From Roseibacillus persicicus (GTDB lineage Bacteria > Verrucomicrobiota > Verrucomicrobiia > Verrucomicrobiales > Akkermansiaceae): a DNA stretch of 64,000 nucleotides. The DNA lies in the NCBI RefSeq assembly GCF_014651675.1, contig NZ_BMXI01000003.1:257604-321603 (forward strand), in the 5' to 3' direction. Shown piece by piece: positions 46,198 to 52,447 of the stretch. Both the position numbers and the translations under genes were made by a program. Below the pieces are notes generated by a model. It was not told where the DNA came from. It searched no databases and was given only the letters and a program-made list of their open reading frames with translations. Every line of letters begins with the position of its first letter. The first letter of the stretch is position 1.

Positions 46198-46470
46198 GTG
46201 AACATCGTTATCATCGGCGGCGTCGCCGGAGGAGCTTCCGCTGCCGCCCGTGCTCGCCGTCATTCCGAATCCGCCACCATCACCGTCATCGAGCGCGGCT
46301 ACGACGTCTCGTTCGCCAATTGCGGTCTCCCCTATCACCTCGGTGGGGAGATCCCGGACCGGGACGACCTTGCCGTCCAGACGCCCGAGTCCTTGACCGC
46401 TCTCCTCATCCTCCAAAACAACGGCTTCGAAGCTCACTCCATCATCGAAGGAGCGCACTTGCAGTTGTGA
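46198..46470 (+). pseudogene. Truncated CoA-disulfide-reductase-type FAD oxidoreductase
   Basis: The first 65 residues are a perfect N-terminus of a pyridine-nucleotide disulfide oxidoreductase of the CoA-disulfide-reductase/persulfide reductase type: NIVIIGGVAGGASAAARARR, ERGYDVSFANCGLPYH (active-site Cys) and DRDDLAVQTPESL. The remaining 480 or so residues are missing. After TPESL the frame turns into unrelated sequence and stops at 46470. It lay in the sulfide operon 13 bases after the DUF3365 gene. The break coincides with the left edge of the restriction island, so this is a gene remnant, not a functional enzyme. Confidence 0.85.
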
Positions 46471-46494: not shown

Positions 46495-47007
46495 TCAGTT
46501 TTGCGATACTGCTCGCAACTCCTCAGCCAACTCCTTAGCCTTCTCAAAATTGGCTTTAAGATGAGGCTTCAATCCTTCAAAGCGAGACTGGAGATCCGCT
46601 TCCGAAACTCCTGAAGATCGAAGTAAAAATATCGTGCTCGTGGCCTCCAAATCTCGGGTCGATTTCTCGTTCAGTTTAGTTGCGAGCGACAGCCAAGATG
46701 GCGAGCCCCCGACTTCGAATAGCTCAAAAATTTGTTGCCCTCTTGCGCTAGGCTTAAAAACACTGGTCGGAAAACCGGCGTAAGGAGTTCGTTCCGAATT
46801 CTCGTCGATGTATTCCTCATCAACAAAGCGCTCCAACACCGTCTGCAACTCCGAAGAATACGCCCCATAGAGAGCTAGCTTGAAATCGAAACCAAAGTCG
46901 TGTCCACATTCTTGAAGAATGTGAATCATCTTTTGGCACTTCTTCCGGCCGGTAACCTCTTCGAGAGTGACGAAAAATTGTAGGAGCGGGATAAACGAGT
47001 CGGACAT
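46495..47007 (-). CDS. YwgA-like protein, partner of the HD-domain gene
   Basis: A 170-residue protein starting MSDSFIPLLQFFVTLEEVTG. The region EEVTGRKKCQKMIHILQECG with LALYGAYSSELQTVLERF strongly resembles the YwgA family, whose typical text is EVTGRKKLQK followed by YGPYSEEL. Function of YwgA is unknown; in Bacillus, as I recall, ywgA lies next to ywfO, which encodes an HD-domain protein. Here the HD-domain gene ends 31 bases upstream on the same strand, the same pairing. Last gene of the restriction island. The ATG start has no clear ribosome site. A role in nucleotide or nucleic-acid-triggered defense is inference. Confidence 0.75.
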   Translation of the reverse strand: MSDSFIPLLQFFVTLEEVTGRKKCQKMIHILQECGHDFGFDFKLALYGAYSSELQTVLERFVDEEYIDENSERTPYAGFPTSVFKPSARGQQIFELFEVGGSPSWLSLATKLNEKSTRDLEATSTIFLLRSSGVSEADLQSRFEGLKPHLKANFEKAKELAEELRAVSQN

Positions 47008-47038
47008 GGCAAGAGCGGGGTAAGAGTTTGTTCAGAAT

Positions 47039-48409
47039 TCAGGCTAAATGACGGTCAATTTGTGTGGCAACCTCAGGCATAAAAAAGATTCGCGAAATTG
47101 GAAAACTCGCAGTTCCCAGACTCTGGAAAAGGACTGAGTCGCGCTCAATCGCTATCGCTGGACGCGAGTAGTCTCCATCGGAAAGGAGGATTGCTTTCCT
47201 CGATACCGTTTCCCAATAGGTCTCGGCATCCCTTTCCTTCATGGCCTCCGCCGGGGCCTTGTATGCGGAGAAATCGGAGTGATCGATTAGCCAAGAGCCT
47301 CCTTCAGGACCACTCTCTGCTGTCAGCTTCAATCTCAGTACACTCTGAAAGGCGAGAGTCGTCTGCTTCCCCTTCAGCTCCCGGGATTCGAGCGTCTTCT
47401 TCCGGTTAAGAAAGTTGGCAGCAAGCTTGCGCAGGAGGTCGGATGAATCCTCGGCCTGGCCCCACAAGACCATCGCTGCGATGAATGACGGCTCGTCCAT
47501 CAAAAGAAATTCGCGATGGGAGACCTTCCCCTTTTCCTTGAGAAAATGCTGCACGTGGGCGGGAGTTGCGTCAGGCAATTTTCCGTCTTCCGCCAACCGT
47601 GCCGCTTCCGCAAAAAGCATCAGGAGATGGGCTTCCCACAGTCTGGTCGTTTGGTGGAAGTAGACCTGCATCGACATGTGGGCCCGGGCGATGATCAGTT
47701 GCTCGGCAGCGTGTCGCCCACGCTTCTCATCGAGACACAAACGAACCTGCGTATTAGGAACATCAGGTGACGGATCCAGCCCCAGACAAAAGCTATTGAT
47801 GACCCACTCCACATCATAACTCCCATAGGCCACGCCGGTGAATAAAGAATCACGGAGCAAGTAGTCCATCCGATCTGCGTCGAGACTGCTACTGATGATG
47901 TCGTGCAGGAAAGGAATCTCATGAAAATCGAGAAGGTTCCGAATCTCCTCAATCTCATTCGCGGTCAGGTTGTGGGCGACTAGGACCTTGTTAATCCCCG
48001 ACTCGGGATCCGTAAGCATGGACTTGCTGCGCTCCTCGTGGTCCTTCCCGCTCTCGAAGGCCCGCTCCATCATGTGCGAAAACGGGCCGTGGCCGAGATC
48101 GTGGAGAAGAGCTGCGATACGGACGAAGCGCGACTTGTGGAGCCAATGTGCCACCTTCTCATCACCCTGATAGCGACGCTCAAGAACCGCCAGGATGCGA
48201 TTGGTGAGGTGCAAAACACCCAGACTGTGAACAAAGCGGGTGTGCTCGGCATTGGGATAGGTGATGTTGCTCACCCCCAGTTGGCGAACCCTCCGCAAAC
48301 GCTGGAACTCCGGCGTATCAATCAGGTCCAAGAGAAGGTCCCGGTCCTGATCCAGCTGGATCAAGCCATGAACGGCATCTCGAAAGACTTTGCTACGCTG
48401 ATTGGTCAC
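47039..48409 (-). CDS. HD-superfamily phosphohydrolase (YwfO/SAMHD1-like dNTPase family)
   Basis: A 456-residue protein with the HD-type active site: NAEHTRFVHSLGVLHL (first His), ALLHDLGHGPFSH (HD pair) and ISSSLDADRMDYLLRD (Asp). The opening FRDAVHGLIQLDQDRDLLLDLIDTPEFQRLRRVRQLG is characteristic of the SAMHD1/YwfO branch, whose members cleave dNTPs or other nucleotides. Start is GTG 48409, 73 bases after the restriction enzyme gene, same strand. The C-terminal third (after about 310) is unrecognised. The adjacent YwgA-like gene suggests a conserved module. Confidence 0.88.
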   Translation of the reverse strand: MTNQRSKVFRDAVHGLIQLDQDRDLLLDLIDTPEFQRLRRVRQLGVSNITYPNAEHTRFVHSLGVLHLTNRILAVLERRYQGDEKVAHWLHKSRFVRIAALLHDLGHGPFSHMMERAFESGKDHEERSKSMLTDPESGINKVLVAHNLTANEIEEIRNLLDFHEIPFLHDIISSSLDADRMDYLLRDSLFTGVAYGSYDVEWVINSFCLGLDPSPDVPNTQVRLCLDEKRGRHAAEQLIIARAHMSMQVYFHQTTRLWEAHLLMLFAEAARLAEDGKLPDATPAHVQHFLKEKGKVSHREFLLMDEPSFIAAMVLWGQAEDSSDLLRKLAANFLNRKKTLESRELKGKQTTLAFQSVLRLKLTAESGPEGGSWLIDHSDFSAYKAPAEAMKERDAETYWETVSRKAILLSDGDYSRPAIAIERDSVLFQSLGTASFPISRIFFMPEVATQIDRHLA

Positions 48410-48482
48410 GAATCATTAGTGTTCAAAAGAACGTAAAAAGTCAATTTCAAAACTTCCACCAAAGGACAGCGGGAGAACGCTC

Positions 48483-51400
48483 CTACTGACTCGCCTCCAC
48501 AATGGCGATCTCCTCGGGGGTGAGATCGTAGAGCTGATAGACGAGCCGATCAATTTGACGGTCAGTGTTGGCGATATCGCTTTCGATGCGGCGGAGGATC
48601 TGGGGATTTTGCTCCTCCTGTAACTTTTTATGGAGACCAAGCATTGATTCAACATGTGAAACCAGCTTGTCGTGAAGGACGACGTCGGAGGGGTTGGAGA
48701 AATCGATGGGGCGGATGGGAAAATGCTGAATATACCGCTTTTCGTAGCTGGCCCAATTCCCCCGAAAAACCGTTGAAGTAATATAGATAAACCAAGACAT
48801 CACCTTCGAGTTAAGGACTCCAAGAAAGTATAAAGGATCTACATCCTTCTTAAAAATTAGACCATACCCCCCTGATGCTCCGCCAAGATAGGCAAAACTT
48901 CCATCCAAGTCGCAACCAAAATGAGGCTTTGGAGCAATATCGGGTACTAATAATTTTTTTGAATAGGACTGGGTTAGGCACTGAGAGCGACTGTATTGAT
49001 AAAACTGTTTCCCTGCAAATCTTCCACGTTCTCTTGCTTCAAGCTTCGCCTTACATTCCTCCAAATACGCCCAAAGCTTTGGCCGTCCAACCATGCTTGA
49101 TTCTGCTAGTAAACTACCTGACTTATCGTATGGGAAAATCATCGAACGCACTGGCTCCGGGGTGCGGAACCGCCTCATGTCGCCCGACTTTGCCACGGAG
49201 AGGCAACACGACTCTTCAATCTCCACATCTTTTTTCAAATGCTTGGAATAACCGGTTAAAAATCCTGACTTTCTCGTGGTGTTGTGCAAGAGAAACACAG
49301 TATCCGCTCCTGTCTTTAACCCTTGAGTTATACTTGTGGTAAAGTCAGTAAGCGCCGGTTTTCCAGAAACTACTTTATCGAAAAATTTTCTCTCGGAATC
49401 GTTCAGAAGATACCATGAACCTTGACTAAGAAAATTTGTATCCATTGAATCCTGCGAAGGCATGAATTCGTAACGCCAATGCTCCAAATTATAAGCTCTC
49501 TGAAACAAGGTTCTTTGGTTTTTAGTCTCTGAAGTAAAGCAAAGGCAAGTATAAGTAGTCGCTTGCGCAAAGACTTGTTCAGCTCCAAAGCTAATTATTT
49601 CACAAAGACTCTTGGATTTCCCTAAAAGGCTTCTCAAATTCTTTCCATACTCTGCATTGAGAAACTTGTGCGGAACAATTTGACCAGAAAATCCTCTACT
49701 GCTTAGAAGGCTGGTCACTTTTTCGATAAAGCAGACATAGATATCAAAATTTCCAACAGAGGCGGATTGATAATTTTTCACATAAAAATCAGCTTCCTCA
49801 GGTGCAAATTCGCGCAATGACTGTATCCTAATATACGGAGGATTCCCAATCACCGCATCGAATCCCCCTTGCTCGAACACCTGCGGAAACGAGCATTCCC
49901 AATCGAAGACGTTGATGCGCTCTTTGGTTTCACCATCTAGTTCGGGTAACTCCGGCTGGTCATAAAAATCGGGACCGATGAGAGAGTTGCCGCACTGAAT
50001 ATTTGCCGCCAAGTCAGGGAGGATGCGCTGGCGCTCGGTCAAGAAGTCGCGCTGGAGTTGTTGCTGGGTCTCGCCTTCGAGCACTTTCAACAGAAGGGAC
50101 AGCTTGGTCACTTCCACCGCTTGGTGGTCGATATCGACGCCGTGAATATTATTGAGCAGGATGCGTTTGCGCTCGGGGGTGGTGAGACGATATTCCCCCG
50201 CATCGTTCCGATAGATGGTGGGGGTCTTACCACCAGCGTGCTTCTTGATGCGTGCGGGGTCGGGCTGACGGGTGCTCGGGTCGAGGGTGTATTGATCCCG
50301 GTGCCAATCGAGAAGGTATTGATAGGCCACAATCAGGAAGGAACCGGAGCCACAAGCGGGGTCGAGAACCTTGAGCTTGGCGGCCTTGGCGAGGGAGAGA
50401 GGCTTGGGAGCGTCCTTCTCACCATTGAGCAAACGGCCCACGGTATTCTCCACAATGTAATCAACGATATACTTGGGGGTGTAGTAGACGCCGCCGGCCT
50501 TGCGGACTTCGGGCTTTTCCTCAATACGAACGGTGCGCCGCTTCTCCCCTCCGCCGAGTTGGATCGTTTTGCCGAGGAACTGCTCGTAAACTTGACCGAG
50601 AATATCGGCGGGAAGAACCGAAAACTCGTAGGCCGACTTGGGCGGGTAAGTCGAGAGGATGATGTCCTTGAGGGGCTGATCATCGATGGTCAGGCTAGGG
50701 GTGAGTCCATCGTGGAAGGAGGGACGCCCTTTCTCCAACTGGAAGTGGAATAAGCCTGAATTGTAGCGATCATCCGCCGCTTGGAAGAGCTTGAGGAGGC
50801 GCGCAAAGACCCCTTTACCAGTGGCTGCCTTTTGGAGGCGCCCGTGGTCCTCGGTCCCGCGATCCTCGGCCATGCGCAGGAAAATGATGCGATCAATGGT
50901 GATCTGAACAACATAGTTGAAGTCGCGGACGTTGGTCAGCTGCGGATTGCGAAGGACGACATTGGTAGCGAGGATTTGACGCCAATGCTCGATCTCCCTG
51001 AGAAAGGCGTCGTCGACTTCCTCAGTGCCTTTCTTGCGCTTGGTCGCGGCGAACTTATCAAAGGACCCTTTCAGCACCGCCTCGCGGGAAAAGGTAGGGG
51101 CGATGAAGCTGTCCCACTGATCGGCGTATTGCTCGAAGGTGAGATACTTGGTCCGCGCCACCGTTGGCTTGTCGTTCACAGCCGGACGAATGCGGGTATC
51201 GTAAACGGCTAACTCCTCGAAGTCGGAAAGGACGCAAAGCGGGAGCTTGGCCGACCAACCGTAGCGTCGCACTTGGCGGGCAGGCTCGGGATTGTCGTGA
51301 ATATTGACGGCAGGCTTCTTGGCCTCGAGGAAGAACTTCCAAGCAGAGGGATTGGGGCCTCCGTTGATCGAAAAGGCGTAGTCTGGAGCCTTGGTGCCAC

Positions 51401-51608
51401 CCCGAATTTTGATCGAGGCCTCATGGATAACATCAGTATAGGCGGGGGCGTGGCCAGACTTATTGTTGATGTCCCAGCCAAGGGCTTCCCAAAATGGGTC
51501 GAGAAACTCGCGACGGAGTTGAGTCTCGTTATAGCCGGGAGATTTATAGAACTCGAAATTGTTAGCGAAGGTTTCGCAAAGGCGTTCGACTTCAGGTGGC
51601 ATTGGCAT
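48483..51608 (-). CDS. Single-chain type IIG-like restriction-modification enzyme
   Basis: A 1041-residue protein combining nuclease, methylase and specificity domains. The N-terminus has a PD-(D/E)xK nuclease: APDYAF, then FLEAKKP about residue 90-110. The central adenine methylase has VLDPACGSGSFLIVAY (motif I) and GNPPYIRIQSL (motif IV). The last 350 residues form a TaqI-like target-recognition region. The methylase runs from about residue 400 to 720, and the specificity part (48780-49800) is visibly more AT-rich. ATG 51608 (MPMPPEVERL) or the ATG at 51602 is the start. It probably cuts and methylates foreign and host DNA respectively. Confidence 0.93.
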   Translation of the reverse strand: MPMPPEVERLCETFANNFEFYKSPGYNETQLRREFLDPFWEALGWDINNKSGHAPAYTDVIHEASIKIRGGTKAPDYAFSINGGPNPSAWKFFLEAKKPAVNIHDNPEPARQVRRYGWSAKLPLCVLSDFEELAVYDTRIRPAVNDKPTVARTKYLTFEQYADQWDSFIAPTFSREAVLKGSFDKFAATKRKKGTEEVDDAFLREIEHWRQILATNVVLRNPQLTNVRDFNYVVQITIDRIIFLRMAEDRGTEDHGRLQKAATGKGVFARLLKLFQAADDRYNSGLFHFQLEKGRPSFHDGLTPSLTIDDQPLKDIILSTYPPKSAYEFSVLPADILGQVYEQFLGKTIQLGGGEKRRTVRIEEKPEVRKAGGVYYTPKYIVDYIVENTVGRLLNGEKDAPKPLSLAKAAKLKVLDPACGSGSFLIVAYQYLLDWHRDQYTLDPSTRQPDPARIKKHAGGKTPTIYRNDAGEYRLTTPERKRILLNNIHGVDIDHQAVEVTKLSLLLKVLEGETQQQLQRDFLTERQRILPDLAANIQCGNSLIGPDFYDQPELPELDGETKERINVFDWECSFPQVFEQGGFDAVIGNPPYIRIQSLREFAPEEADFYVKNYQSASVGNFDIYVCFIEKVTSLLSSRGFSGQIVPHKFLNAEYGKNLRSLLGKSKSLCEIISFGAEQVFAQATTYTCLCFTSETKNQRTLFQRAYNLEHWRYEFMPSQDSMDTNFLSQGSWYLLNDSERKFFDKVVSGKPALTDFTTSITQGLKTGADTVFLLHNTTRKSGFLTGYSKHLKKDVEIEESCCLSVAKSGDMRRFRTPEPVRSMIFPYDKSGSLLAESSMVGRPKLWAYLEECKAKLEARERGRFAGKQFYQYSRSQCLTQSYSKKLLVPDIAPKPHFGCDLDGSFAYLGGASGGYGLIFKKDVDPLYFLGVLNSKVMSWFIYITSTVFRGNWASYEKRYIQHFPIRPIDFSNPSDVVLHDKLVSHVESMLGLHKKLQEEQNPQILRRIESDIANTDRQIDRLVYQLYDLTPEEIAIVEASQ

Positions 51609-51734
51609 AGGAGAACTCTGTAGATATCTTTCAAAACTTCCAACTCCAGAATGCGCGGACTTGGAAACCATCTCACCCCAAAATCTGGGTCGAAACTTCC
51701 CAATACTTCCGAGCTTCGGCGAATTCACAATCGA

Positions 51735-51839
51735 CCTCATCCCGTCGTGGCAGCCTTTCTCATGCTCGCCTCCTCCATGACCGTCCTGGCCCTGGTCAAT
51801 CGCAAGATCACTCCCCAACTCCCGGGCAGCTCAGCCTGA
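51735..51839 (+). pseudogene. C-terminal remnant, probably of a heavy-metal P-type ATPase
   Basis: In the 323 bases between the restriction enzyme start and the GNAT gene, a plus-strand frame encodes PHPVVAAFLMLASSMTVLAL followed by NRKITPQLPGSS and a stop at 51839. This looks like the last transmembrane helix and tail of a copper/heavy-metal P1B-type ATPase, where PVIAGAAMALSS-type text ends the protein. The match begins abruptly at 51735, at the right border of the island. The rest of the gap (51609-51734, 51840-51931) shows nothing else. The identity is a pattern match on about 20 residues, so moderate. Confidence 0.45.
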
Positions 51840-51931
51840 GAACGTTAAAGTCCTCCTACGCCTGACTGAGGGCGCGGCTTCGACTGCGGGTTGAGGTTGG
51901 TACGGTCATAACGGAATGAACTGGCGACGGG

Positions 51932-52447
51932 TTAGGCCTTAGGAGCGACGCCTTGTTCTGTCTTTAGATTCTTGAACATGATGTGAGCGTCTACATAGCC
52001 CATTTCTGGGTGGCAAAATGCTCCGGGGACTGTTCCGACGATCTTAAAGCCAAGTCGCTCCCACAGGCGGATAGCACCCTTATTCGTGGACACGACCAAA
52101 TTGAACTGCATCCCTCGAAACCCTTTTGATACAGCTTCCGCTTGTGAATGCTCGCACATGGAGGATGCAACGCCTCGCGCACGCGCGTTCTCGGAAACAA
52201 TGTAACCGCAATTGCAGATATGCGCTCCAAGTCCAGGCTGATTGGCCTTGAGGTAATAAGTCCCGAGAAGCTCGCCACCGTCCTCAACCACGTAGGTTGC
52301 TCGCGGCTCGTCAACCCAGACGCCGCGGGCCTCCTGCTCCGTGATTTCGGGTGAGTAAACGTAAGTCTGTCCCGCGCGGAAAACAGGTTCGAGCATCCCC
52401 CATACTGCTTGCCAGTCACCTTCTTGAAACAATCGAATCATGGGCAT
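51932..52447 (-). CDS. GNAT-family N-acetyltransferase
   Basis: A 171-residue acetyltransferase starting MPMIRLFQEGDWQAVWGML. The acetyl-CoA motif appears as ARARGVASSMCEHSQAEAVSKG (R/Q-x-x-G-x-G/A-like, about residues 88-109), followed by FNLVVSTNKGAIRLWERLGFKIVGTVPGAF, the usual motif B with NxxxxxLYxxxGF variation. Substrate is unknown; the family includes antibiotic and metabolite N-acetylases. It lies just outside the restriction island and is transcribed toward it. Composition looks like that of the chromosome, so it is probably native rather than imported. Confidence 0.85.
   Translation of the reverse strand: MPMIRLFQEGDWQAVWGMLEPVFRAGQTYVYSPEITEQEARGVWVDEPRATYVVEDGGELLGTYYLKANQPGLGAHICNCGYIVSENARARGVASSMCEHSQAEAVSKGFRGMQFNLVVSTNKGAIRLWERLGFKIVGTVPGAFCHPEMGYVDAHIMFKNLKTEQGVAPKA

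Follow-up and report, generated by a model that had tools for sequence, protein, structure and literature searches.

A 64,000-nucleotide stretch of the Roseibacillus persicicus genome (assembly GCF_014651675.1, contig NZ_BMXI01000003.1, positions 257,604 to 321,603), here called the window, carries three genes in a row on the minus strand. They encode a small YwgA-like protein that resembles the C-terminal domain of DarG (46495..47007; 170 amino acids, ATG start), an HD phosphohydrolase of the SAMHD1/2o6i branch (47039..48409; 456 amino acids, GTG start) and a type IIG restriction-modification (RM) enzyme (48483..51608; 1041 amino acids from an in-frame ATG at 51608, the reading frame being open to a TTG at 51818). 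A first reading of the letters alone (the original prediction) described these genes with gaps of 31 and 73 bases and proposed that together they form a defence module; the coordinates and gaps are confirmed by the open reading frames. It is the HD gene and its small neighbour, rather than all three genes, that recur together in other genomes.

The HD protein matches Pfam HD (E 5.9e-9) and HD_assoc_2 (E 1.1e-5), both above cut-off. Its nearest solved structure is 2o6i (E 1.4e-51), listed as 'HD domain protein', which we take to be EF1143 of Enterococcus faecalis; EF1143 and YwfO are names for HD phosphohydrolases of the SAMHD1 branch. The structures that follow are 2q14 and 2hek, then 9mr6 ('HD domain-containing protein', rank 4, E 7.2e-24) and ZK177.8, and then chains of SAMHD1. 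Eight residues (R58, H61, H103, D104, H107, H112, H124 and D177) are conserved in 21 of 22 aligned HD sequences, the window counted; in the exception the region is missing at a contig end. A smaller alignment of nine rows shows E115, of the HE dyad, in every one. The eight positions are presumably metal-binding or catalytic sites, on the assumption that the roles of CloA residues carry over to the SAMHD1/EF1143 branch. For CloA, roles are given to the HD, HE, H and D residues in PMC12265719. The window protein thus has what marks the SAMHD1/EF1143 type: the HD match, the HD_assoc_2 region, R..H, the HD motif, the HxxE dyad and a downstream D. The curated cut-offs for deoxyguanosine triphosphate hydrolases (dGTPases) are far from reached (39.5 of 152.35 bits for TIGR01353; 32.5 of 400 for NF041026), and the PADLOC dGTPase model matches weakly (E 5.4e-11). 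The protein is proposed to be a deoxynucleoside triphosphate (dNTP) triphosphohydrolase effector.

The small protein has no Pfam family at E 0.001, and a permissive Pfam scan gave only E 0.025 or worse; Macro, nucleotidyltransferase and SocA_Panacea are without a Pfam match in it. It resembles the Priestia gene that has the YwgA position there (E 1e-10 by BLASTP, in a single comparison). What the original prediction missed is a similarity to the toxin-binding C-terminal domain of DarG. Scans with the single sequence give weak DarG matches (PADLOC E 7.1e-7; NCBIfam E 2.4e-5), and a profile search of the Protein Data Bank (PDB) matched the DarG chain 7yk3_B weakly (E 0.088). Comparison of profiles is far stronger: 16 standalone YwgA-like rows, Priestia included, align with 18 DarG C-terminal rows over 147 columns (probability 98.6, E 1.5e-15), and nine control profiles, one reversed and eight column-shuffled, reach at most 1.4. 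One of the DarG rows (L004) has a Pfam Macro match; the other 17 come from a search of the phylum, with macrodomain-like N-termini judged by eye, and one row is a partial of 250 codons. When the YwgA profile is run on the DarG rows, it is the C-terminal part that aligns in 16 of the 18, at independent E-values of 1.6e-9 or less in small search spaces. The other two are L027 (3.6e-8) and L021, where the first-listed segment has E 11 and the whole protein E 1.2e-11.

That phylum search used an alignment of four small proteins and had matches in 18 of 387 genomes; standalone size was seen only in the window's own match. Compared with each other, the divergent and the close YwgA alignments give a probability of 98.9 (E 2.5e-17). 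By the profiles, the homology between YwgA-like proteins and the C-terminal domain of DarG spans about 147 columns, a relationship that is new in this analysis. In enteropathogenic Escherichia coli DarG, the C-terminal domain alone binds and counteracts DarT (PMC7003065); elsewhere DarG is described as a DNA mimic (PMC13368585). The small protein is proposed to be the dedicated partner of the HD enzyme, as inhibitor or sensor. Panacea (DUF4065) was also considered as the YwgA family, from a tblastn lead with the Priestia protein (E 5e-4), and was rejected; the profile comparison gave a probability of only 0.42. The Panacea profile had 12 rows, selected by motif pattern from 13 loci, and the DarG profile scores 6.4 against it.

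Few genomes of the order have the HD family (10 of 189, with 11 loci), and a YwgA-like gene adjoins the HD gene at 8 of these loci, in reverse order at one (L063). A profile search of the class (384 genomes) matched 11 genomes at E 1e-15 and met nine new loci, five of them paired (L091-L095). The two Verrucomicrobiota surveys together give 13 of 20 HD loci with an adjoining small gene. HD and YwgA-like genes are thus a conserved two-gene unit, as the original prediction supposed, and their recurrence in other genomes makes chance adjacency very unlikely. Six of the seven unpaired loci are open frames of 690-985 codons. Three of those six were scanned, and all three are HD fusions, to a protein kinase (L065, L096) or to PRTase-CE (L061). 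The seventh (L062) is cut at a contig start, and the gene downstream of its HD gene is not YwgA-like. With L005 and L003/L047 the Verrucomicrobial pairs number 15, and the HD gene comes first in 14 of them. At L047 (1631-3081, genome G022) the HD gene of the pair is read in several pieces, through decay or assembly error.

The two proteins also diverge together. Their distance matrices correlate with r 0.906 over 15 pairs (Priestia included, L047 excluded) and r 0.743 over the 11 closer ones; neither value was reached in any of 2000 permutations. The window HD protein clusters with homologues that come from two other families (local support 0.965), and not with L006 of its own family, which suggests that the gene was acquired by transfer.

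The pair extends beyond the phylum. From collections of plasmids, phage records and viral contigs, 24 loci with an HD gene of the same branch were compared, and four have a YwgA-like neighbour: one in Priestia (L007), a Bacilli counterpart that supports the original prediction, and three on viral-collection contigs (L117, L118 and L119). One contig supplies two of the 24 loci, one at each end, and some of the HD genes stand at the end of a contig. A further paired contig (L138) came from a search with a divergent YwgA alignment and brings the IMG/VR contigs with the pair to four; scans of the viral collection with two narrower alignments gave no small-protein match. On L118 a phage repressor (PHROG E 7.8e-29), an integrase (E 1.6e-30), the HD gene and the YwgA gene share one strand, and an excisionase-like gene (E 1.7e-5) lies on the other. 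A repressor (PHROG E 8.3e-37) lies upstream of the pair on L119, and an integrase (PHROG E 5.6e-35) downstream of it on L117. The L138 pair is flanked by two long genes that weakly match tail proteins. IMG/VR contigs can be integrated prophages or mis-called islands, and L117, which carries an exonuclease-V-like helicase gene, may be host DNA. Another viral-collection contig, L140 (5911-7502), has a YwgA-like gene beside a 347-amino-acid protein without a Pfam family, instead of an HD gene; this protein is possibly another partner of YwgA-like genes.

Neighbourhoods of the Verrucomicrobial pairs are of several kinds. At L064 the pair lies near DUF6791-ThiF, DUF6527, capP-like and integrase genes, and at L067 near a thymidylate (dTMP) kinase gene and a PemK-like gene. 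At L069 (9166-13149) it adjoins a PF06189 5'-nucleotidase gene and an HsdS gene, possibly as part of a wider nucleotide-depletion cluster. The pair is also found in temperate-phage-like and integrase-bearing contexts; what would have refuted the original prediction, housekeeping contexts alone and absence from defence islands, is not what is seen. Defence is not the sole context either, as the housekeeping-like pairs described below show. A defence context for the pair is plausible, not proven.

The original prediction counts the restriction enzyme as the third member of the module. It is a predicted type IIG enzyme, with a nuclease-like N-terminus fused to an adenine methylase and a specificity region. 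The PADLOC type IIG model PDLC03604 (REase_MTase_IIG) matches with E 3.5e-236 and aligns from residue 76 of the 1111-amino-acid open reading frame, in agreement with a start at 51608. Pfam gives an Eco57I-type methylase (E 1.1e-43) and HSDR_N (E 6.7e-8), and a TaqI_C specificity domain falls under its cut-off (22.1 of 26.5 bits). DPACGSG, NPPY and PD..ExK-like motifs were read by eye in the translation.

RM genes lie within 6 kb of at least 3 of the 15 Verrucomicrobial pairs, and they differ in kind: type IIG in the window, HsdR with an integrase at L063 and HsdS at L069. Since its RM gene was the reason for choosing the window, an independent count must leave it out; type I RM genes then lie at a distance of about 1 kb or less from at least 2 of the other 14 pairs. 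The remaining 12 pairs have no other RM gene among the PADLOC matches listed (25 of 154 families). HSDR_N, which has 339 matches in 134 of the 189 genomes of the order, occurs at least once in 46.5 kb of sequence flanking seven pairs of the order survey (window left out), where 0.019 are expected (P about 0.02); this is thin evidence, as it is one gene in 46.5 kb and only part of the flanking genes were scanned. The proximity of RM genes and the HSDR_N count are what could be said for an RM-dependent backup of the kind suggested in the original prediction, triggered by failure or inhibition of the type IIG enzyme. Such an arrangement is highly improbable, given the different kinds of RM genes and the 12 pairs just mentioned, and a shared island is explanation enough. 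The restriction enzyme is a neighbour in this genome and not a constant part of the module; in this the original prediction is not supported.

The reading developed here starts from features that were computed, namely gene order, co-occurrence, co-divergence, intact catalytic positions, DarG-domain homology and presence on viral-collection contigs. From there on we infer dNTPase activity, physical binding, inhibition, a trigger, a direction of control (leash or activator) and a role in defence. It is that of a mobile two-gene module in which a dNTPase effector is restrained by a dedicated DarG-domain-like partner and released on infection, and we give it a little less than an even chance. The HD protein, of SAMHD1/EF1143 type, would hydrolyse dNTPs and so starve DNA replication. 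In the uninfected cell the YwgA-like protein would bind its own HD partner and restrain it. Infection would lift the restraint, whether through a change in the dNTP pool, through phage DNA or through phage proteins that bind DNA; the freed enzyme would then destroy dNTPs and halt phage replication. The restriction enzyme would be a separate defence system sharing the island. Restraint is modelled on DarG holding DarT (PMC7003065) and on Clover, in which the dNTPase operon becomes toxic once the active site of the partner is mutated (PMC12265719). A further reading, which we put forward as tentative and somewhat unlikely, is that of an anti-phage system not yet described, with a SAMHD1-type dNTPase kept inactive directly by a protein built on the DarG toxin-binding domain. 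Phage replication intermediates would titrate this inhibitor, possibly a DNA mimic, away, and temperate phages would carry the system against other phages.

Several observations weigh against release on infection from a dedicated leash. Homology to the DarG domain does not by itself demonstrate inhibition. Structure models of both proteins are poor, with mean predicted local distance difference test scores of 45.5 and 61.0 from three-row alignments, and the model of the small protein has no PDB fold match better than E 2.9. Co-divergence of HD and YwgA is partly expected from linkage. No YwgA gene is recognisable at 20 of the 24 same-branch loci in the plasmid, phage-record and viral collections, among them loci from Listeria, Staphylococcus, an Enterococcus phage record, Paenibacillus, Aerococcus and Bacteroidota, so the HD enzyme does not always need this partner. 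Three opposite-strand genes on L118, structural by eye, have no PHROG match.

Nor are PADLOC matches near the pairs clearly commoner than in controls, and an enrichment of the pairs near defence genes is not clear. The 106 neighbour genes within 6 kb of the 15 pairs (often less at contig ends) were compared with a random draw of 106 of the 113 control genes in nine 20-kb stretches of genomes G000, G479, G419, G489 and G437. The neighbours matched 154 PADLOC families and the controls nine (mad2, mad3, DpdF, AriA, Csa3 and PDC among them). No enrichment is claimed, because the counts are by family and not by protein; among the 25 neighbour families listed are many RM models that match the same few proteins.

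Some pairs also stand among ordinary genes. The Priestia megaterium pair is near hemQ, pta and a YwhD-family gene, and at L093 (9436-12515, genome G631) the pair lies directly downstream of dnaN, the sliding clamp gene, on the same strand. Because of these contexts some pairs may only tune dNTP pools. Applied to all of them, this becomes a dNTP-homeostasis module in which the HD enzyme trims pools, YwgA is a regulatory subunit tied to replication state, and islands and phages carry the pair incidentally or for DNA metabolism. The dTMP kinase at L067 and the 5'-nucleotidase at L069 would fit it as well. We nevertheless consider it unlikely in view of the sparse distribution of the HD family in the order and of the phage-like and integrase contexts.

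Control could also run in the opposite direction. The YwgA-like protein would then be an activator or sensor that binds DNA or the single strands of phage replication and switches the HD enzyme on. In alignments read by eye, the layout of its GRxKLQK ... YGPYS core could be that of a winged-helix type domain, and its surface may relate to DNA recognition, since DarG is described as a DNA mimic (PMC13368585). The one tested relative of the domain found in print inhibits its partner (PMC7003065), and activation is in our view distinctly unlikely.

The pair could also be an addiction (toxin-antitoxin) module that gives stability to mobile elements; phage defence would then be secondary or missing. 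In favour are an effector with a small partner close to integrases or phage repressors, and the kinship of this partner to an antitoxin domain. We know of no toxicity of the HD effector, however; same-branch HD genes without the partner are common elsewhere, and the effector gene comes first in nearly all Verrucomicrobial pairs. An addiction role is therefore judged very unlikely.

Set beside known systems, restraint of a dNTPase by a DarG-like partner has its closest parallel in Clover, which consists of the dGTPase CloA and the nucleotidyltransferase CloB (PMC12265719). Both are two-gene units of an HD dNTPase and a restraining partner, and the restraint, shown for Clover, is proposed here. 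The partner is DarG-domain-like here and a nucleotidyltransferase in Clover; the HD protein is far under the dGTPase cut-offs and nearest to 2o6i, a separation made by family profiles. The best reading is of a Clover analogue with a different regulator. With DarTG the pair shares the homology of its small protein to the domain that binds and neutralises DarT (PMC7003065, PMC13368585). The small protein differs in having no macrodomain, and no DarT gene lies beside it; its neighbour is the HD gene. Sequence, catalytic positions and the HD_assoc_2 region tie the HD protein to the EF1143/YwfO/SAMHD1 branch, from which it is set apart by its YwgA neighbour, lacking at most loci of the branch elsewhere. 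Dgt-type defence dGTPases (NF041026) resemble it in proposed dNTP depletion and in weak similarity to the PADLOC model, and differ in that it scores so far below their cut-off.

No description of the HD and YwgA pair was found in the literature searched, a scope that excludes subscription papers and most preprints. By title, none of the first 20 of 62 matches for DarG with SAMHD1 concerns this pair, and no paper about the YwgA protein was found, judged by title or listing. Regulated anti-phage dNTPases are already known as a kind; the pair would be a variant whose regulator is of a new type. How bacterial dNTPases spare their own cell is answered for one family by Clover, and a DarG-type leash, if true, would be a second answer. 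It would also give a first functional hypothesis for YwgA, link the antiviral SAMHD1 branch to a mobile, regulated bacterial version, and turn the C-terminal domain of DarG into a leash of general use on unrelated effectors.

A separate HD context without YwgA is seen on two alphaproteobacterial plasmids (L009, 3650-7437; L010, 3569-7416). Each has a run of four genes annotated as radical SAM, 3'-5' exonuclease, AAA family ATPase and HD phosphohydrolase; at L009 the exonuclease and AAA annotations are confirmed by Pfam and the radical SAM annotation is not. A CD-NTase gene and a ThiF gene are neighbours at L009, and an N-6 DNA methylase gene at L010. The run is a candidate nucleotide-related defence operon.

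In the window the three-gene block looks inserted as an island, because of a dip in guanine plus cytosine content (0.47-0.52 in windows between 47 and 51 kb, about 0.53-0.62 elsewhere) and a gene broken off at its left edge. There the plus strand carries the start of a CoA-disulfide-reductase gene (46198..46390). Homology stops after about 65 codons (TIGR03385 positions 2-65 or 2-66 only) and the open reading frame continues to 46470. In a whole-genome search a TIGR03385 match limited to positions 2-65 occurs at this place only, and other homologues lie elsewhere in the genome. A possible right edge is a short plus-strand open stretch ending in TGA (51720..51839), a gene fragment by eye only. 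No syntenic empty site was found when the right flank was searched in the genus and the left neighbour protein in the family, with five stretches inspected, so the ends of the island are approximate. A scan for promoters and terminators gave no more than shuffles did. An Rfam V_AS7 match (46217-46385, E 3e-12, under gathering score) was taken as coding similarity, since it lies on the opposite strand of the reductase coding fragment. Just to the right, at 51840-51958, are about 100-118 bases with copies that are 77-80% identical elsewhere in the same genome (L034) and in two genomes of the genus (L033 and L035).

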